Under the pieces are notes generated by a model. That model saw nothing but the letters and a program-made list of their open reading frames with translations, searched no databases and had not been told where the DNA came from. A stretch of DNA of 64,000 nucleotides from Tipula vernalis (Eukaryota; Arthropoda; Insecta; Diptera; Tipulidae), in contig OY282558.1 in assembly GCA_958295665.1 (NCBI GenBank), positions 133,538,701-133,602,700 of the forward strand, in the 5' to 3' direction. Each line of letters begins with the position of its first letter. Position 1 is the first letter of the stretch. Shown here one piece after another: positions 16,810 to 63,877 of the stretch. The translations under genes were made by a program, and so were the position numbers.

Positions 16810-16824
16810 CACTCAAAAAAAATT
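16810..16824 (+). repeat. Left terminal inverted repeat of the CACTA element
   Basis: CACTCAAAAAAAATT, identical over 15 bases to the inverted right end. It is preceded by TA at 16808-16809. Confidence 0.85.
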
Positions 16825-17137
16825 TTAGTAAAAACTAAAAATTTCGTTTTATAATCAACTAAAAATTGTTATAAAAATTAGTCAATAAATTAGTGTCATA
16901 ATTTTTATAATTTAAAATTTTTAAATTTAATCACATATATTAGTATTAATATACATCAGAAAAGTATTTAATTTTATTACCACGCATTTCGAATTTATAA
17001 CGTATAAAGTAGTTAATTTCATAGATTATTTTTACTTTTTATCCATAATCATAGTTGATTCAAACTATTGATTGTAATTAATTCAAAAACAGCACTTTTT
17101 GTTTAATCTAAGTCGCTTATTCTTTCTACAACGAGTG

Positions 17138-17264
17138 TGTTATACATTTTACTACGAAAAATATTATAGGAGTAGAATTTACGACCAAAACTGTTATGTA
17201 TTTTATGCCGAAAGCGCTTATACTGTTTACAACATAATATGTGTTATACATTTTACAACCGAAA
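17138..17264 (+). repeat. Subterminal direct repeats of the CACTA element
   Basis: Three copies of a ~22-bp phrase close to TGTTATACATTTTACNACGAAA start at 17138, 17192 and 17242, roughly 50 bp apart, with a partial copy (TTTACGACCAAAA) at 17179. CACTA elements commonly carry subterminal repeats bound by their accessory protein, so these may be binding sites. That role is inferred. Confidence 0.55.
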
Positions 17265-17445
17265 TTGTGATGAATTTAATATTTAATTTGGATCATCAAA
17301 ATTTGTGAGGTAGGTTCGATTATTTTCATTAAATTTTTCTTAAATAAATAAAAATAATACAAAAATTTCAACTCAAAACTTAAACATAAATTCCATTTTA
17401 TTTCGTATCCCTAATTACAAATTATGTCTTAATGTACATAAATTT

Positions 17446-19590
17446 TTAACTTTGTTTCTGAAATTCAAAAATTACACCTGATAAACTGGATGCCTTTGTA
17501 TCAGTTGGCAAATAGATGTCGTACAAATACTGCTGAATGAAAGTCCAAATGAGCTCAGATTCATGAGGGTATTTTAAATTAAAAATTTGATATATTTTAA
17601 AAATTACGTCTACAGCTTTCGGAATTGTGGGCAGTTTAAATTTGATGAAATCAAAAAATACGTAAATGTCCTGTAAATTGTTTAGGTTATCTCCAACTGC
17701 CACAATTACTGGCTGCATCGTCATATTTAGATTCAAATATTTCTCTCTCATTTTACATAAGGTTCCATGAATTTCATTTTGGGTTGTTACGTGTATAATT
17801 ACACTTAGTTGGGCATCGGTGATGGATGGCTGCCAAATATTTTTTTTTATGGATATTTTTTTTGGTTTTAGAAGCCCGGCTAGAAGGATGATTGATAAGT
17901 AATCCTGGTTTCCTAAGAAAACAAAAAGCATTATTTTACGAATCCCTCTTTAAAAAATTAATAATTATAATTACCCTCAATTTCATCGTCCCACTTATCA
18001 AACTCTTTCTTAACCGCTTTATTTTTTATAGTTTTGAATATTGTTTTAGCTTTACGCTTATACTTATTCCAGTTATTAAGGAAATTGTTTTTCTTGCCAG
18101 GAAACAGTAGGTAAAAATCTATTTCCATTAAATTATGGCCTAAAGAATTGCAGTATAATGGCCACATTTGTATTATTTCTCCTGTATTTGATTTCAAAAT
18201 GTCTTTTCTTCGGTAATTAAAAGTCAACCGCCAACGCTCTGTTATGTCGGCCCAAGGTTCGATGTTGTGCTTTAACCACATTCTGTTCGTTTCTACATTT
18301 GTAATTCAAATCGCACGTTAATGATATATTTTCATTTTTTACTGTAATGTTAATACATACCATTGTCAGCATTATTTATGCTACTTCCTTCACAACTTGA
18401 ATTAATTAAGTTTTCAAAATTGGAATTTGTTGCGCTTTGAGGCGGGTTTGTTTTTGGGCTCGCACAATTTAAGATGCTGAGTTTCCTTAATTTAGATGTT
18501 TCGTTGACATTTTTGCCGTATAAGAGCCCACGAGCGTTTTTCTTTCCATTTCTTGGGATGTACCAAAGCTCCTTTGAAATAAACAGATACTTCAACAATC
18601 ATAAAAAAAACTTGTGTACATAATATCTCTACTTACAATATTCTCATTAGGAAATTTACTTTTTATTAATTTAGAAGTTTCCTCGATTTCTTTATTTGTC
18701 ATCCTTCGTTGATATTTGGTAATAAATAGTTTAATGAAGTTATCCACAAAGGGTTTTCTGTGATACTCATCAAAATTGTTTTTATTGTTATTGTAGAATT
18801 CTACAAGAGAGCGCCCAATAATTGTACTTGTTGTAAAATTTTCCAAAAAATCGTTAACTGATTGTCAATCAGATGTATTTCCGCTCCAGCCACTTGTTGT
18901 AGATGACCAGTTGGAACAGTTAGAAATGGTGTCCGTAGAACCACTACAAGCCTTTTGAACTGAAGTGTTTTGTAAATTATCACAATCTAATCCCTAATTA
19001 GATATCAATTTATAAACGTTCAGAAAAAAGATTTCATACGCCTAAAAAGATCGATCAAAATGCACGCACGAAAAAATGCAGAACCAAACTGAGAATGGAG
19101 GTGTCTTTTGGTAGAATAGAACTATATAACTTTTATATAAATATAGTAGTTACCATTGTAGTTCTCCATTCAGTTAGATTAATGATGAAATCGATGCGAT
19201 ACCCGATTTCCTCGCCTGGAAATATTATTTTTACATCTTCATAATTCATTACTTTTAAAGTGTGTAGCGAACATCTTTTAACTGAAATAAGTTTAAAAAA
19301 ATATTTTACACAAATTAAGTTAATCAGTAAATACTTAAGAACAAGATTTACTTACGTAAAAGTTTCTGAAACACTTCTTCTTCCATATTCCATTTCTCAA
19401 CTATCAATTCTTTTAAATTGATAACGGTGCTCTACTTAATATTAATTTGTTGAATCACATTATTATCTAAACTACACATCCAATTTCTTCCTACATGTGC
19501 ATTATTTGATCCATCCAAATGATCTACCGCGTGGTCTATACTACTTTCTCCATTATCCTGTTCCAATGATTCAGTTGTATTTGTTGACAT
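17446..19590 (-). pseudogene. CACTA accessory gene, six exons, two nonsense codons
   Basis: Exons 19590-19356, 19281-19154, 18993-18637, 18571-18361, 18292-17975 and 17912-17446 join in phase through GT..AG introns of 74, 160, 65, 68 and 62 bp. They give 571 codons plus a stop. The N-terminal part (LLKRCSLHTL...FPGEEIGYRIDF) resembles the SAM-like domain of proteins paired with insect CACTA-type transposases. Later come YIPRNGKKNARG, MWPLYCNSLGHNLMEIDF, SVIIHVTTQNEI and KAVDVIFKIYQIFN, which I recall from the same family. Exon 1 has TAG at 19434-19432 and exon 3 has TGA at 18867-18865, both in frame, so this copy is probably inactive unless start or splicing differs. Confidence 0.7.
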
Positions 19591-20046
19591 CTTAATAATC
19601 AGTTATGGCTTTGCCTTAAATAATCACTTATTCTTTAAATTTTAGTAAAATTAAATATTTTTTTATGTATATGCATAAAAACTGAAAATTCACGCTGAAC
19701 GATGATCTTTTCCTTGAATTTTATTTCGACTTTATTGTTTACAGATCCACACGTTAATGAAAAATATAATGAATTATGATGCATGTATTATTTTCTCTTT
19801 GTAACGGATATATAGAGAGAAAACATCATATTTTATTTAGTAGAGTTTATAACACTGTTATTATTTACACTAAAAAAGTTTTGTTTTTATTTAAGATGTT
19901 ATAATTTATAAAACCGGACTGTTTTTACTTTCACAACAACAATATTGCAATTCATAAATTTATATGAAAATATGTTTAACACAAATTTTTATATTTTTTG
20001 TGGTTATGTATTTTTAACATAATCTTTGGTTGAAAATGATAGAAAA
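19591..20046. other. Spacer between the two CACTA genes
   Basis: The 456 bp between the accessory gene start and the original transposase stop is AT-rich, with no open frame of note. It should hold the accessory gene promoter on the minus strand, but no clear element can be picked out. Confidence 0.4.
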
Positions 20047-20154
20047 TTAGAAGAAATGCTTTAATCGAATGACCTTATCACCGTTCGGCGTATAGTATAA
20101 ATGTATTGGATTTACATTAAAATCTGTAATAAGTTTTAGGACCTTTTCATTGGT
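20047..20154 (-). CDS. Severed C-terminal tail of the CACTA transposase
   Basis: This continues the transposase reading frame. Directly after the left copy of the 8-bp duplication GTTGGACG, the minus strand stays open for 35 residues (including NPIHLYYTPNGDKVIRLKHF) and ends with TAA at 20049-20047. The phase matches exactly if the foldback-like element and one duplication copy are removed. The intact protein would have been 813 residues rather than 780. Today the tail has no start of its own and is separated by 2.7 kb from the rest. The similarity of the tail to the usual ends of this family is from memory. Confidence 0.8.
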   Translation of the reverse strand, partial: TNEKVLKLITDFNVNPIHLYYTPNGDKVIRLKHFF

Positions 20155-20171
20155 TGGACGGGAATGGGTAC

Positions 20172-20391
20172 GAAGAGCCGAATTTCAAAGGGCCGAATGT
20201 CGAAGGGCCGAATGTCAAAGGGCCGAATGGGTCGAAGGGCCGAATGTGTCGAAGGGCCGAATGTCGAAGGGCCGAATGTCGAAGGGCCGAATGTGTCGAA
20301 GGGCCGAAAGTGTCAAAGGGCCGAATATCGAAGGGCCGAATAGGTCGAAGGGCCGAATGGGTCGAAGGGCCGAATGGGTCGAAGGGCCGAA
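20172..20391 (+). repeat. GGGCCGAAT minisatellite, left arm
   Basis: About 14 head-to-tail units of 15-17 bp built on GGGCCGAATGTCGAA with GGGTC, GTGTC and GTC variants. The unit has no stop codon in several frames, which creates spurious open frames on both strands. It forms the outer end of the left foldback arm and is followed by a T run at 20392-20404. Confidence 0.95.
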
Positions 20392-21137
20392 TTTTTTTTT
20401 TTTTGTTTTGTTTTTAGAAATATAATTTTTAAAATTCGTTGTTTTAAGGAATATTTGGTAATTTTTTTTTTTCAAATATAAATTACTTTCTTATGAATTT
20501 ATGTATTTTATTATATTTGATCTTTGGATATTCTATCGACACAAATATTGCATTAATTGAGGTTGTTTATATTTTGCGTTCCTTTTGGAATTATCAAGTG
20601 AAAAAATATTTGTACATAATAGGTATTTTACCAAAACCAAGGCTTATTATATCAATATAAATGGAATATATATGTAGGTATATACATATGTATTACTTTT
20701 GTAGTATAACCCGCTCGTATATAATAACAAAAGGCGAAGGTTATTTTATTCTAATATGCGTACCAAATGTAAATAGATTTTAAATAAGAAAACGGAATTT
20801 TGTCATAAAATGTCATAAAAATTCAATTTACTTCTGTTCTTTAAACTGATGATAATATTCATTCTGTTCGAACGATGATATTTTCTAGACCATTATATAG
20901 TTTATTGCTATTGTTTTAGAAAAAAAAAAAAAGTAAGTGGTGGAATTTGTCTTTTGGAACAAAGAATCCTAATTATCGGTCGGCTTTCTTTCAACCTCAC
21001 TATACGAAAATGCATTATTTTGCTCTACACGATAAATACATAAAAAAAAGGGATGGAAAGATTTTTCAAGTGTGGATCTACAAAAAAGAATTTTATTGAT
21101 GTGTCCATGAACATAATCATAAATAAATAATGTTGTA

Positions 21138-21352
21138 CACCAATACCTCGCTTTACGATATTATTATTTTCCGAAAAATTGGGCGTAAATCGAAATTTCT
21201 TGTCGTTTTATTGGAAAATTTCGAAAATAGAGGGATTGGTGACATGTACACTAATCCCTCGATTTAGGAAATTTTCCAATAAAACGACAAGAAATTTCGA
21301 TTTAAGCCCAATTTTTCGGAAAATAATAATATCGTAAAGCGGGGTATTGGTG
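21138..21352. repeat. Hairpin MITE flanked by TA
   Basis: This 215-bp near-perfect palindrome begins CACCAATACCTCGCTTTACG and ends in its inverse, with TA at 21136-21137 and 21353-21354. The TA duplication and the end sequence suggest a non-autonomous Tc1/mariner or pogo relative. Its centre (GAGGGATTGGTG / CACTAATCCCTC) carries a second facing pair of the same end motif, so each half looks like a ~100-bp unit with its own ends. Confidence 0.8.
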
Positions 21353-21783
21353 TATTATGTGTTTTGGTTATTCTATACATATACCTATTTGCATCATGGA
21401 CAAATATATCTAGAAAAAGAAAAGACAAGAGAAAGATAAAAAAAATATCTAGAAAAAGAAGAAAAGCTCAAGAGAAACTAACTTCCGGAATTATAATTTT
21501 AAATAAAATTTGTGTAATTATAACAATTTGTTTTTTATTAATTGAATCTGAACCATCTTGATGTAAGTAGATAAATGCCTACTCATAAAAAATCAACTTA
21601 AAATAAGGGACATAGGAAAACTGACTTTGGTATGTAAATTTTGCATTACAACATATTGCAATTACAAAACGTTGAAATTTTAAAATATTGCAATATAAAA
21701 TCTTGCTTAACAATTTCCCTTACTATTTTTTCTATATTCTGAGGAAAATAAATTGAAGAAAAATTACATCGACTAATTTAACT

Positions 21784-21910
21784 TGGAATTGTAGAGGCTA
21801 ACGGCTTCGGTCGCTGCGCTCCCCCCCGCTTAGCCCTCCGAGGGGCTTTAGATTTGTGCTTTGGGGGACGCAGGAGCCGGGATCAGCAAACATGTCGCAC
21901 TGCGTGCCGC
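21784..21910. other. GC-rich island of unknown origin
   Basis: Roughly 125 bp, clearly richer in G and C than the AT-rich surroundings, with CGGCTTCGGTCGCTGCG, a C run, CCCTCCGAGGGG and CACTGCGTGCCGCACG, in the unpaired centre of the foldback element. No open frame or RNA gene motif that I can name. The abrupt change of composition suggests captured or unrelated DNA. Confidence 0.5.
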
Positions 21911-22643
21911 ACGTAGGAGCAGATTATATAGAATAAAAGGATTACCCAAATACATAATGTTGTAATTTATGACTGGATGAATGGAAAACATCAATAAAAC
22001 TCTTTTTTGTAGATCCACCCTTTAAAAATCTTTCCATCCCTTTGTTTGTTATGTGTTCGCCGTGTAGAGAAAAAAAATACATCGTATAGTGAGATTGAAA
22101 GAAAGCCGACCGATAATTAGGATTCATTATTTACTTCTTTTTTTTCTAAAACAATAGTAATAAACTATATAATGTTCTCGAAAATAACATCGTTGGTAAA
22201 TGAAAGAATTTTTATGACATTTTATGACAAAATTCCTTTTTCTTATTTAAAATCTATTTACATTTGGTACGCATATTAGAAAAAAATAACCTTCGCCTTT
22301 TGTTATTATATACGAGCGGGTTATAGTACAAAAGTAATACATATGTGTATACCTACATATATATTCCATTTATATTGATATAATAAGACTTGGTTTTGGT
22401 AAAATACCTATTATGTACAAATATTTTTTCACTTGATAATACCAAAAGGAACGCAAAATATAAACAACCTCAATTAATGCAATATTTGTGTCGATAGAAT
22501 ATCCAAAGATCAAATATAATAAAATACATAAACTCATAAAAAATTAATTTATATTTGACAAAAAAAAAATTACCAAATATTCCTTAAAACAACAAATTTT
22601 AAAAATTATATTTCTAAAAACAAAACAAAACAAAAAAAAAAAC

Positions 22644-22897
22644 TCGGCCCTTCGACCCATTCGGCCCTTCGACCCATTCGGCCCTTCGACCCATTCGGCC
22701 CTTCGACCCATTCGGCCCTTCGACCCATTCGGCCCTTCGACATTCGGCCCTTCGACATTCGGCCCTTCGACACATTCGGCCCTTCGACAAATTCGGCCCT
22801 TCGACATTCGGCCCTTCGACATTCGGCCCTTCGACACATTCGGCCCTTTGAAATTCGGCCCTTCGACATTCGGCCCTTCGACATTTGGCCCTTTGAT
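22644..22897 (-). repeat. GGGCCGAAT minisatellite, right arm
   Basis: About 16 units of the same 15-17 bp repeat as the left arm, in inverted orientation, preceded by a run of A at 22621-22641. Five adjacent units share the GGGTC variant, which points to local expansion after the arms diverged. Confidence 0.95.
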
Positions 22898-22898
22898 A

Positions 22899-25241
22899 TC
22901 ATTCCGTTGGACGCACTAGATAGCTTTGAATTTCATCATCAAAATTAATAATTTCCCATTTGTTACATAGTAGGACTATGTTTAGATTATTTTGCTTAGC
23001 TATACAATCAATTTCAAATAAATTTAGAATTTCTGATAAGATAGTCAAAAAATATCCTTTTTTATACAGGATGCCATTCCAAGAACACGACCTTAATAAT
23101 TGCATGTCCGCCGAAATTACAATAAATTCTGATGGTATTGAATCTGTATGTAATATTTCGTAAGCCAATGGGTCTTCAAAAAAACTTTGGTTAATGAGCA
23201 TATAAGAAAACTGCAAACTCATTTTAATTCCAATAGATAGAGCGATATTCCTTCTTGACATTGTGGCATAAGCATACGATTTTAAAATCTTGTGTTTTGC
23301 TTCAAAACGCATACACCATAGTGGTTTTATAGGCCCATTACACCGTATTGCGTTAGGGTAATGAATCAAAAAATGAAATTTCGGTTTAAGAGTCTCACCG
23401 AATAAACTTGTGTACTGTGAGTTATGTTCAAATATTATTTTTTCAAGAATTTGAATTTCAGTTTCTTTAAATGAGGGTTTCAATATCATATCTACAAGTT
23501 TTACTAAAGTAATTAGAAACTTTCCCACTTGGTCATTATGAGGAATCATATCCATTAACATTAGTGGTAAGAAATGAATGAAAGTCATCATCTCTCTAGC
23601 AGTCATTTTTATGGTATTGCTTTTTAGATGTGCTAAAGAAATTTCTTGTGATATGTTGCCTATTTCAGTAGGGCCGTAGTTAAACATTTGCTTTCTATAA
23701 TTTAACATAGCAATTGTAAAACATTTTTTTTCAATAATGAAGTACGATAATATTTTGCAGACATCATATTTAGCAACTCCCTTAAAAACATCATGCATAA
23801 TGTCAAACACAACATTGTCACAAACATGAAAGTTATTTAAAGTGTTAAAAACACAAGTTTCTACAATGCCTGTTCTCGATGAATCATTTAATAGTAAGTC
23901 GATTTCATAGTTTTCAAAATTTCGTAAGTAAGATGAATATTCAACTAAATCAGTTTGTATGTGATCTTTACGTCGTTTACACCTTCTACAGCAGTAATTG
24001 GCTGAAAATGAGCTGGTAAACCCTAAAATTTTGTTTAGTCCCAAATTATCTCCAGTAATTGCCGCGAGTACAATATATACTTTAATGTTATTTTCTCCTT
24101 GACGTATTTCGATACCTTGTGTTTCTAATTCTTTCATTTGTCTTACAAGATCAACCAAGGCCACAGCGTTACCACAACTGTCAACATCACAACTTTTAAA
24201 AAGAGCAGCTAAAAATATATTGTTCAATCTCGATTTTTCGTGATCAGGGATAACTGGAAAATTGTAATAACATCCTAATATTTTGTGTGTACCAGCATGT
24301 GATCCAAGGGGATTATTCACCTCAAAGTCGTTAAAATATAACACATAAGGTAGAACAACTTTGTTTCGATAGTTTTTTATCTTATTTTTCCAAATTTGTC
24401 CATTTATTATGTTGCCGTAATAATCTAATTTCAATAGATTTTGGTAATTTTTCATAGTTAAATCAAAAATATTTTCTGTCTCAAAATATTTTTTTATTTG
24501 AAATGTTATCGGAAAAATCACTGCTTTATAATTTTTTTCATCTAGCTTAGGAACACCATTTGATATAGTTTCAGAAACTTCGTTATTTATTGTTATACAT
24601 TTCGGAGGTCTATAAACATCAAGTTCATACAAGGTTTTGAAAAGTTTATGTTCCGTGTCAAACTTTTTAAATGGGTTTTCGGTCAAGGTGGCACCTTTCA
24701 TTACTCCACTGTACGTAAAGCCATCATCCACATCCAAATCGCGAAGATACTCTTTTAAATTAAGAAAAATAGGTGAAACGATAAATTCTTGTACCTTAGT
24801 TTGGATATATAACACATTTTTTCGGGTAAAATTGATATTATTATGTAGGCTTAACGTAAACTTCAAACAACTCTGAGTCAAATCGATTTTTTCAGGGATT
24901 TGCACTATTTTCTGAACATTTGGCTCACATTCACTTCTATCAGCACTCAACTCACAATTAACCATTTTTAAATTTTCCGCCAAATTTGTTTGAAATGGAA
25001 CTGTGTCTTCTGCAATATTTCCAAGGTTTAACGTATAGTTCAAATTAGTTGTTCCTGATATAGCATGTTTTCTTTTCATATGACGCGTGAATACATATAC
25101 AGAATTAAATGATTGAACACAATTATTTAAAGTACAATAATAAAGACTATTTTCAGTTAAACCGTGAGCCAACTTTAAATGTTTAATATAGTTGTCTAAA
25201 CCGAAAAACCGAACACTGCACTTAAAACAATTTAACACCAT
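22899..25241 (-). CDS. CACTA (tnp2-like) transposase with C2H2 fingers, 780 codons
   Basis: ATG at 25241, one open frame of 780 codons. Residues 5-26 and 36-59 form two C2H2-type zinc fingers (CFKC...HLKLAH; CTLNNC...HMKRKH). The tnp2-like body shows LYFNDFEVNNPLGSHAG (about 302-318), ITGDNLGLN (395-403), the cysteine cluster CCRRCKRRKDH (417-427), NVVFDIMHDVFKG (476-488) and FHFLIHYP...LWCMRFEAKH (622-650). These acidic residues (D305, D398, D480/D484, E647) are candidates for catalysis. The enzyme would cut at the CACTC ends. Its last two residues and TGA stop come from the inserted foldback-like element; the original tail lies at 20154-20047. Loss of 35 residues may or may not abolish activity. 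Confidence 0.85.
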   Translation of the reverse strand: MVLNCFKCSVRFFGLDNYIKHLKLAHGLTENSLYYCTLNNCVQSFNSVYVFTRHMKRKHAISGTTNLNYTLNLGNIAEDTVPFQTNLAENLKMVNCELSADRSECEPNVQKIVQIPEKIDLTQSCLKFTLSLHNNINFTRKNVLYIQTKVQEFIVSPIFLNLKEYLRDLDVDDGFTYSGVMKGATLTENPFKKFDTEHKLFKTLYELDVYRPPKCITINNEVSETISNGVPKLDEKNYKAVIFPITFQIKKYFETENIFDLTMKNYQNLLKLDYYGNIINGQIWKNKIKNYRNKVVLPYVLYFNDFEVNNPLGSHAGTHKILGCYYNFPVIPDHEKSRLNNIFLAALFKSCDVDSCGNAVALVDLVRQMKELETQGIEIRQGENNIKVYIVLAAITGDNLGLNKILGFTSSFSANYCCRRCKRRKDHIQTDLVEYSSYLRNFENYEIDLLLNDSSRTGIVETCVFNTLNNFHVCDNVVFDIMHDVFKGVAKYDVCKILSYFIIEKKCFTIAMLNYRKQMFNYGPTEIGNISQEISLAHLKSNTIKMTAREMMTFIHFLPLMLMDMIPHNDQVGKFLITLVKLVDMILKPSFKETEIQILEKIIFEHNSQYTSLFGETLKPKFHFLIHYPNAIRCNGPIKPLWCMRFEAKHKILKSYAYATMSRRNIALSIGIKMSLQFSYMLINQSFFEDPLAYEILHTDSIPSEFIVISADMQLLRSCSWNGILYKKGYFLTILSEILNLFEIDCIAKQNNLNIVLLCNKWEIINFDDEIQSYLVRPTE

Positions 25242-25612
25242 TTTAGTGAACTGTTTGTTAAACGTACATGCAAAATCTATTTTGACGTTTAGCTGACAAA
25301 CGGAATTGATAATAATGTAGAATTAAAACGAAGAATTTTGGTTTTCATAGCAATTGTTTCTATTTTTACAACACTGTTTTGAATTTGATTATATTGAGAA
25401 TCGTAGTTATAAAATTAAAAACTTCTTTTGTTGAATGTACCAAATACAGTATTAAAGTTTTATACTTAAAATCTACTAAATCGATGTGGTTAAATTGAAA
25501 TATAGTTTTTGGGATTCCTTTATCAATTCAACTTCAAAAAGTTTTTATTCAATTTTATTAGTAGATTTTCTTTATAAAATTCATCACACTGTTATTAAAA
25601 ATTTATAACAAT

Positions 25613-25627
25613 AATTTTTTTTGAGTG
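25613..25627 (-). repeat. Right terminal inverted repeat of the CACTA element
   Basis: Reads CACTCAAAAAAAATT inward on the minus strand, 15/15 identical to the left end, followed by TA at 25628-25629. Confidence 0.85.
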
Positions 25628-61560: not shown

Positions 61561-61598
61561 TTTATCTTATCATTCACAATCCGACCGCTGTCACCAAT

Positions 61599-62400
61599 TG
61601 TTACGTTTTTGCTTTGTCACTGAAGGTTCGTATCACTGGATTGTGAATAATACAAAATCAATTTAATTTATCACCAACGAATTTATTTATTTCTCAAAAT
61701 GTATTACAACACAGTTTATCAATCAAAATTCACAAAATCACTTTATATAAATTATTCTCAAATTTTACTGATCACTTTTACTTTTTATTTCGAACAAAAA
61801 CACTTTTTAAATCACTTTTTAATTCCTTTTTAATCTTTATACAATCGCTTACCAAATATTACTAATCCAATTCGACTGTTTATTTAGAAACTAGTGCGCC
61901 TACCGTGGGTCGGAGCTAGTCCACTAATTCTAAATAAATAGTTTAATTGAATGAGAAGCGATATGTTTACTGATTTTATAACTTCTGTCTTTATTATTAA
62001 ACATTTCCAGTTTATATATTATAATTTACTTCACTAAATGGAACGGAAGTATCAGATTTAACGTTATATACGTTTAATTTATATGGTTAATTACAAAATA
62101 TAAGTATGTGCTGTATCGGCACATTTATATGTTTGTGTTTTACTCAACAAACAAAATTTAAGTAAATGCTATTTCAGCTTTTTGTCGCAATCGTTTCCTG
62201 TTACCAGCTGAATTGGAAACATCGACTTCGTTTGCCTTTTTGTATACACAAACCAAACTTCTAGAAAGCTCATGATTTTTCTAGTTAGAATAGTGTAGAA
62301 CAATTTTATCATGGAAAATTTCATTTTAGTACAGCTAAACATTGAGCTATTCATTTAACTTCTTCTATTACACACTAGGTGTCACCGTCATAATATAACA
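61599..62400 (-). repeat. 5' LTR of the gypsy element, 802 bp
   Basis: On the minus strand it begins TGTTATATTATGACGG and ends AAAACGTAACA, so the ends are TGTTA..TAACA, and gag leader sequence (ATTGGTGACAGCGGTCGG) follows. It aligns in inverted orientation with 62444-62900, which confirms both ends. Confidence 0.85.
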
Positions 62401-62443
62401 CTTTTGTATGGTTTGAATATAAGCTAAATAAAAAACAGCACAA

Positions 62444-62900
62444 TGTGACGTGACACCTAACGTGTAATAGAATATGTTAAATTAATAGCTCAATATTTAA
62501 CTGTACTAAAATGGAATTTTCCATGATAAAATTGTTCTAAATGTTTCTACGCTATTCTAACTAGAAAAATCATGAGCTTTCTAGAAGTTTGGTTTGTGTT
62601 TATAAAAAGGCGAACGAAGTCGAATTGGATTAGTAGTATTTGGAAAACGACAGTGTGAAGATTAAAAAGTCAAAATTCACAAAGTGATTTAAAAAGTGTT
62701 GTAGTGCGAAATAAAAATTATAAGTGATAAGCAAAATTTGAGAATAATTTATATAAAGTGATTTTGTGAATTTTGATTGATAAACTGTGTTGTAATAAAT
62801 TTTGAGAAATAAATAAATTCGTTGGAGATAAATTAAATTGATTTTGTATTATTCACAATCCAGTGATACGAACCTTCAGTGACAAAGCAAAAACGTAACA
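62444..62900 (+). repeat. Opposing gypsy LTR (solo, internally deleted), 457 bp
   Basis: Begins TGTGACGTGACACC and ends AAAACGTAACA; it is the same LTR family as 61599-62400 in opposite orientation. It lacks about 345 bp of the longer copy; the gap falls between two GTCGA copies present in the longer LTR, pointing to deletion between short repeats. No element body follows it, so it is a solo or truncated LTR. A 43-bp spacer separates the two LTRs. Confidence 0.85.
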
Positions 62901-63877
62901 AAACATTTGTAAAATTTTAAAAACTTAACAAATACTAGAAACAAATAAAAAATCAAAAGATTGTGAACTATACATAACTGAGAATTTAACTTAACATAAT
63001 AATTAAACATCGTAGAAACCTTAAGCGTTGAAAGAGCTGCAATCATCACGAAAAAATAGATTCAAATGGCTGATGTCATTGAGCGAACGTATGTAGAACA
63101 TTTTACTGTTCAAATCATCTGATTGCTTTAGTAAAATGACGTTGTCCTTGACCCATAAAAACTTGAAATTCATTTTTTATTTAGCAATTTCGAGGCAGTA
63201 TAGAGTTTAGTTTGTAATATGGTGAGATGATGCATAATCAAAATTTCCTGATCCGAAAAGCCATTCGGCAGAGCTGAGTTGTACGTTCAGTTGATTTGTT
63301 TAAACGAAATTTTCTTAACGTAACTTCTTTTACATGAATATTTTTAAATTTCCCAACGATCATTGTCCTCTGCTCCTTATTTCTGGTTGGAATGGCCCGT
63401 TTAATATACCGAATTTTGATTATATCATCTTCAGTAATAACCATATCAATGTGCTTGAGTAAACAACCAATTGAAGTAGTTTTAACAAAATCTAATTCTT
63501 TGGTTATGTCAACGCGAACGGTCGGTCAGCAAAATTTCATGAATATATACTAAGCCGATTAAATGCTAAAACTTTCAATGTCCCTTAAAAATTAGACCAC
63601 GATTAATGGGTAATTTGCTAAGCCTTTAGCTTAAGCCTTTTATGAGGGTCTTAGCGATCGAGGTCTATTTATGACAATACATTTTAATTATTAATTATTT
63701 GTTTGTACAAAGCAAATCAATAAAAGTCCCTTAAGCAAATATCATTGATTAAATGTCTGATGTACTCGTACATAGCTTGAAAAGATATCATCAAACAATT
63801 TTTTATCTTTTTTTTTTAAATAATCTTATTAATTTTTCTTTCATTCATCTTTCATTTTTTTCTTCTCATTTTTACAG
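62901..63877. other. Intron end before the third visible Sur exon
   Basis: AT-rich, with no element recognised. A minus-strand frame at 63238-63444 (basic, 68 codons) has no motif I know. The stretch closes with a long pyrimidine tract and TTTTTACAG at 63869-63877. Confidence 0.55.

Follow-up and report, generated by a model that had tools for sequence, protein, structure and literature searches.

A foldback element inserted in a CACTA-like transposase gene of the crane fly Tipula vernalis belongs to a repeated family with 8-bp target-site duplications

Insertion into a Preexisting Transposase Gene

In the genome of Tipula vernalis (assembly GCA_958295665.1, contig OY282558.1), a transposase gene of a CACTA-like transposon ends inside a long palindrome, which raises the question of whether the palindrome is part of that transposon or a foreign insertion and, if the latter, what moved it. 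We analyzed the surrounding stretch of 64,000 nucleotides (positions 133,538,701 to 133,602,700; hereafter the window, in which all feature positions are given) together with the rest of the 1.27-Gb genome. Consistent with a prior sequence-only reading of the locus, a 2745-bp unit whose two ends read GGAATG inward (left end, GGAATGGGTACGAAG; right end read inward, GGAATGATATCAAAG) is flanked on both sides by GTTGGACG (Table 1). The repeat is exactly 8 bp long, since the adjacent bases are unlike on either side, and the chance of an 8-letter identity at the local base composition is about 7e-5. The present stop codon of the transposase gene (22899-22901) lies within the inserted DNA, as had been proposed.

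When the unit was removed and the flanks were joined, the uninterrupted transposase frame measured 840 residues between stops, as against 807 at present. The tail thus regained comprises 34 residues rather than the 35 first counted, the last residue of the present frame being foreign. Among 77 homologous proteins, several of which are too short or truncated to include the tail, relatives continue across the insertion site, and the regained tail aligns with theirs, P0002 appearing to be the closest relative in this region. The transposase gene is therefore older than the insertion. The foldback unit is an insertion with an 8-bp duplication into a preexisting transposase gene, near whose 3' end it took away a conserved 34-residue C-terminal tail.

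A Repeated Family with Its Own Duplications

A genome search with the left arm of the unit yielded 2143 candidates, the best 40 of which, near full length and including the window copy, were scored; five short pieces were found besides. Outside the window, none of the 39 matches starts in the flank; each starts either with the unit itself, whose first base is query position 9, or at positions 19-21. A tandem array stands at both ends in 40/40 copies, beside both conserved end motifs (Table 1). At these family ends, 36 of the 40 copies carry an exact 8-bp duplication, and 35 of the 39 copies other than that in the window have one of their own; a duplication of one fixed length thus recurs in independent copies, as in foldback elements. 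The sequence-only reading had named the absence of any other copy with an 8-bp duplication as grounds for refutation, a condition that these counts contradict. Two other copies depart slightly, one matching at 7/8 letters (L043) and one having a 9-bp duplication, CAATTTTTC (L037). Shifting the right boundary by -3, -2, -1, +1, +2, and +3 left 0, 0, 0, 2, 2, and 0 of the 40 copies matching at 7/8 or better. In 12 of the 36 duplications, the match runs on for one or two bases into the end of the element itself; because base composition predicts such extension by chance in about a third, these were counted as 8 bp. One insertion (L024) lies within an AT microsatellite. Flanks of four further copies were read by eye, and three of these (L054, L056, and L057) have 8-bp duplications.

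An empty site was found for one member of the family. At L054 (G000:C1:87202700-87208300), a foldback copy lies inside the transposase gene of a Mutator-like element (MULE), and this gene is itself in a palindrome of about 2.8 kb whose halves are 99.9% identical. No element interrupts the sister half, where AACAATAA occurs once; in the filled half it occurs twice. Insertion with an 8-bp duplication is thereby proved directly for the family, although not for the site in the window.

Exact 22-base ends of the family occur 400 times (right) and 335 times (left) in the genome, and reversed-pattern controls gave none. To the first 100 right ends on contig C1 (up to 274.8 Mb), we compared those of the first 100 left ends, likewise all on C1, that lie in that range (82). 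An exact left end faced 58 of the 100 listed right ends within 20 kb, one left end serving two, and 42 of the 58 paired spans measured 2.25-2.9 kb end to end; the remaining 42 right ends had no such partner. The partners of unpaired right ends may have changed or disappeared, and since many right ends lack an exact facing left end, complete copies are fewer than ends. At two sites (G000:C1:109691535-109691672 and G000:C1:85143122-85143687), the ends are only 138 and 566 bp apart, probably representing internal-deletion forms resembling miniature inverted-repeat transposable elements (MITEs). Nested insertions within two foldback copies (L042 and L057) contain Tc1/mariner-like transposase frames, named by eye.

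One genome therefore harbors hundreds of ends of a foldback family, many of them young, that is able to cut the transposase genes of other transposons, of which two cases, the window and L054, were seen. With fixed ends, an empty site, and a palindromic target, the copies form a clean set for probing the role of tandem arrays in long terminal inverted repeats (TIRs), and palindromes of 2.5 kb in such numbers and so alike might serve as substrates for rearrangement, as Galileo does in Drosophila.

Structure, Age, and Target Preference

The alignment of the two arms of the window copy covers 20162-21133 on the left and 21952-22871 on the right (about 970 and 920 bp), and in it 859 positions match against 42 mismatches and 23 gaps. 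These long inverted terminal repeats, and the short tandem units inside the arms, present on both sides in all 40 copies, are features of foldback elements. Arms built of a GGGCCGAAT minisatellite had been described from the sequence, and tandem arrays were indeed present in both; a small correction is that units of this type are alternately 15 and 17 bp long. A nested MITE, whose end was found only in the window copy among the 40, bounds the left inner arm; 36/40 copies had its exact empty site. The MITE is thus later than the foldback element, and the order of events is CACTA-like element, then foldback insertion, then MITE. The loop, with 24% G+C, includes a GC-rich block (21796-21925) for which no plasmid, Pfam, or (over the block) Rfam match was found; Rfam searches of three other copies with their flanks gave six matches, none at the gathering score. 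The block could be a captured fragment.

The 39 aligned copies are 98.1-99.3% identical to their consensus. Although the aligned copies are the best scoring, so that this identity is biased toward the youngest, such values indicate that part of the family's spread was recent. Two copies found by their ends (L055 and L056) are only about 91-95% identical to the consensus; hence, older or divergent copies exist. Left arms are on average 97.7% identical to other left arms and right arms 96.5% to other right arms, while an arm is 91.9% identical to its own partner and 91.8% to the partners of other copies. Left and right arms are set apart by 28 near-fixed substitutions in the 40 copies, and in 28/40 the left arm is slightly nearer to its own right arm than to the average of other right arms. 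This pattern suggests a single origin of the palindrome in the ancestor of the family, since when it has moved as one unit, and that the arms have probably not been evened out copy by copy, with at most a slight effect of that kind.

The 36 exact duplications are 17% G+C. They contain 65 palindromic pairs out of a possible 144 (shuffle mean 50.9; 10/5000 shuffles reach 65), and purine first with pyrimidine last accounts for 59/72 (shuffle mean 36.0; 0/5000 shuffles reach 59). The target of the family is thereby AT-rich and roughly palindromic, RAAWWTTY, relative to which the window's own target site is an outlier in composition.

Relation to Known Foldback Elements

The FB and FB-NOF elements of Drosophila melanogaster have long inverted arms of short tandem units and 9-bp duplications. 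The present family resembles them in its long arms of short tandem units, a likeness by description, while only 1/40 copies (L037) has 9 bp at fixed ends. Earlier placement of the window element near Foldback and Galileo types agrees with its foldback-like form and the arrays in its arms; as the sequence-only reading had itself noted for the window copy, neither the 9-bp FB length nor the 7-bp Galileo length characterizes the duplication.

Galileo, of the P superfamily, likewise has very long, internally repetitive TIRs and differs in its 7-bp duplications and, in the F subfamily, a tandem unit of about 210 bp (PMC3573991, PMC3688188). Tetris / DAIBAM of Drosophila is of foldback form, has long TIRs that contain tandem units, gives 8-10-bp duplications, and has yielded no transposase; it differs in its units of about 220 bp and an outer flanking domain (PMC4079207). 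Tm1, a Mutator/foldback family of root-knot nematodes, has asymmetric 7-bp end motifs followed by a variable number of 13-15-bp tandem units, arms that average 93.15% identity, and some copies without coding capacity. Unlike the present family, Tm1 has mostly 9-bp duplications (8-10 bp in 45/53) and the unit CGATTCAGTATCCGC, and the parts of its description drawn on here mention no long AT-rich inner arms (PMC3169594).

Closely similar in plan are the Muta elements of Aedes aegypti, with 14 families producing 8-9-bp duplications and subterminal tandem repeats of 9-15 bp in 10 of the 12 long-TIR families (PMC5225508). In Muta1, labeled a type 2 foldback element by its authors, nine 12-bp units set apart by 3-4-bp spacers follow a terminal motif of 10 bp, and the duplications are 8-9 bp; Muta5 has nine 15-bp tandem units (PMC5225508). 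Like the Tipula family, both have a terminal motif followed by short tandem units and hundreds of nonautonomous derivatives, the likeness being one of plan. Unlike it, their TIRs are 145-151 bp long versus about 950 bp here, their duplications mix 8 and 9 bp, and autonomous copies are known (PMC5225508). Because Tetris, Tm1, and Muta elements give such lengths (8-10, 8-10, and 8-9 bp, respectively), an 8-bp duplication is no mark of novelty, and the argument of the sequence-only reading that it points to an undescribed family is weak. Among the papers listed from an open-access library, none described this unit; for pieces of the unit, those listed (30 of 383) have titles on other subjects, and the one Drosophila satellite paper checked has the sequence in a primer. 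The structure of the element belongs to an already known kind.

How the Family Moves

In the frames listed for the family consensus, the window copy, L042, and L054-L057, the longest stop-to-stop frame of the consensus has 119 codons and starts in array sequence, and the consensus codes for no transposase. The family is hence most likely nonautonomous and moved in trans. We favor, with reasonable though incomplete confidence, the explanation that the window element is a copy of a recently spread nonautonomous foldback family mobilized in trans, probably by a MULE transposase. Such an enzyme, made elsewhere in the genome, would bind the tandem units of both arms, pair the element ends, and excise the element, which would then be joined to an AT-rich, roughly palindromic RAAWWTTY site opened with an 8-bp stagger. 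That the units bind transposase is suggested by analogy with Galileo, whose TIR repeats carry extra transposase-binding sites (PMC3688188, PMC3573991). The 8-bp duplication is within the 8-10-bp range of MULEs.

Candidate sources of the enzyme are plentiful. MULE-domain matches in the genome numbered 1401 candidates, and many of the best 150, which were scored, lie in open frames of 466-477 codons. Many of the long-frame matches have exactly equal scores, which hints that several MULE families have been active recently. The MULE copy L053 encodes a 467-residue protein with FLYWCH and MULE domains; its inverted ends, read by eye, start with terminal motifs that are unequal and continue in units of about 15-17 bp, and it has a probable 9-bp duplication, one of four candidates listed.

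Several results weigh against a MULE as the mover. The family's unit sequence is unlike that of the one MULE end examined, L053. Its duplication is 8 bp with a single 9-bp exception, versus the mixed 8-10 bp of Muta1, Tetris, and Tm1, while two of the 40 copies (L033 and L039) and one of the four read by eye (L055) have no duplication. Among the ten longest end-to-end spans (3.5-15 kb), three (L055-L057) were read whole and four (L058-L061) were probed mid-span over 0.9 kb each, the check leaving out spans of 3.5, 8.9, and 15 kb and two of 3.0-3.2 kb; no MULE or other cut-and-paste transposase of the family's own was seen in L055-L061, by eye and with no family search run. By eye, these spans held frames that looked mariner-like or retroelement-like, stretches of family sequence, or DNA that we could not explain; the open frame of L058 resembles reverse transcriptase and that of L059 gag, and L061 is uncertain.

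The strongest competitor, which we consider distinctly less probable than a MULE, is a transposase of another superfamily with 8-bp duplications (Merlin, hAT, or P type), the resemblance to MULE foldback elements being convergence. Merlin, hAT, and P transposases give duplications of about 8 bp, and the 36 exact 8-bp cases with only one of 9 bp accord with them. However, the target RAAWWTTY differs from the hAT pattern nTnnnnAn and from the GC-rich P pattern. Galileo demonstrates that the P superfamily can give rise to elements of foldback shape (PMC3573991, PMC3688188), yet short subterminal tandem repeats are common in insect MULE ends, as the long-TIR Muta families illustrate (PMC5225508). 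A somewhat more doubtful proposal is that the family, having reached hundreds of copies without its two arms losing their own fixed differences, is mobilized by a transposase from outside MULE and P, the superfamilies in which foldback elements are described, and is marked by the near-invariant 8-bp duplication at palindromic RAAWWTTY sites.

It is unlikely that the GGGCCGAAT arrays are minisatellites that expanded in place and have no role in movement. Unit number does vary among the 40 copies (12-16 left, 8-20 right), but an array is kept beside both ends in every one of them, and the repeats in Galileo TIRs bind the transposase domain of that element (PMC3688188). We give practically no credence to the idea that the palindrome belongs to the regular structure of the CACTA-like element, as the relatives' proteins run through the site and the 39 other copies of the unit lie elsewhere in different flanks, 35 with exact duplications of their own. 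Long palindromes can be assembly errors, but an assembly or replication artifact is equally implausible here, given arms that differ consistently over 40 copies and flanks that differ between them.

Several further observations concern MULEs and palindromes. L054 contains two MULE genes tail to tail in its palindrome, one cut by the foldback copy and the other open; this natural palindromic MULE is possibly a step toward foldback arms. An opposed pair of MULE domains with another score (G000:C2:265081941-265083918) has a spacing of about 1.7 kb, as in L054. The foldback copy at L039, which has no duplication, and a MULE domain containing one stop (G000:C2:72452867-72453166) are about 1.2 kb apart.

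Host Transposon and Other Features of the Window

Table 1. Coordinates of the foldback element, its insertion site, and the interrupted transposon in the window
Feature	Position	Strand	Details
Probable host transposon	16810..25627	-	CACTCAAAAAAAATT inverted ends, TA on both sides
Displaced 3' end of host transposase frame	20047..20160	-	Ends in TAA at 20047-20049
Target-site duplication, left copy	20153..20160	.	GTTGGACG
Foldback element	20161..22905	+	2745 bp; belongs to a repeated family, on the basis of ends, structure, and family search
Left terminal motif	20161..20171	+	GGAATGGGTAC; first 22 letters match family end at 21-22/22 in 40/40 copies
Left array	20172..20392	+	14 units of 15/17 bp, GGGCCGAATGTCGAA / GGGCCGAATGGGTCGAA
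Inner left arm, AT-rich	20393..21133	+	
Nested palindromic MITE	21138..21352	.	CACCAATACC...GGTATTGGTG, CAC...GTG ends, TA on both sides; bounds by eye
GC-rich block in loop	21796..21925	.	63% G+C; part of family consensus
Inner right arm, AT-rich	21952..22643	-	
Right array	22644..22894	-	Left-array units inverted, about 15-17
Right terminal motif	22895..22905	-	GGAATGATATC (read inward); first 22 letters match family end at 21-22/22 in 40/40 copies
Host transposase reading frame	22899..25241	-	Likely first Met to present stop; stop in inserted DNA
Target-site duplication, right copy	22906..22913	.	GTTGGACG

CACTA (EnSpm) transposons have inverted ends starting CACT(A/G), 2-3-bp duplications, and a transposase of the Transposase_21 / DUF4218 type. 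In the interrupted transposon, the TA-flanked CACTCAAAAAAAATT ends at 16810 and 25627, whose fifth base is C, pair at 24/30 letters, whereas 0/200 simulated sequence pairs reach 24 (maximum 21). The transposase in the window matches DUF4218 weakly (E=0.12) and no Pfam family at E<=0.01; of 19 aligned members, one matches Transposase_21 and one Plavaka at E<=0.01. Its named protein relatives are from insects. Because Pfam support is weak, we call the element CACTA-like only; the CACTA label given from the sequence is plausible, not firmly shown.

Translated arrays gave one match, P0078 (E=7.5e-5, 71 candidates), a weak one that we took for a merely similar repeat; translation in the other orientation gave no protein at E<=1 (16 candidates). 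Searches with DNA patterns of the element gave five viral contigs, with a single 16-mer match each, and the other patterns had no match in viral or genome contigs. A palindrome at 61598-62901 in the window was considered as a second foldback element and set aside since, by eye, it resembles inverted pieces of long terminal repeats beside a retroelement. It contains an inverted 221-bp pair, 96% complementary, with further nested inverted repeats.

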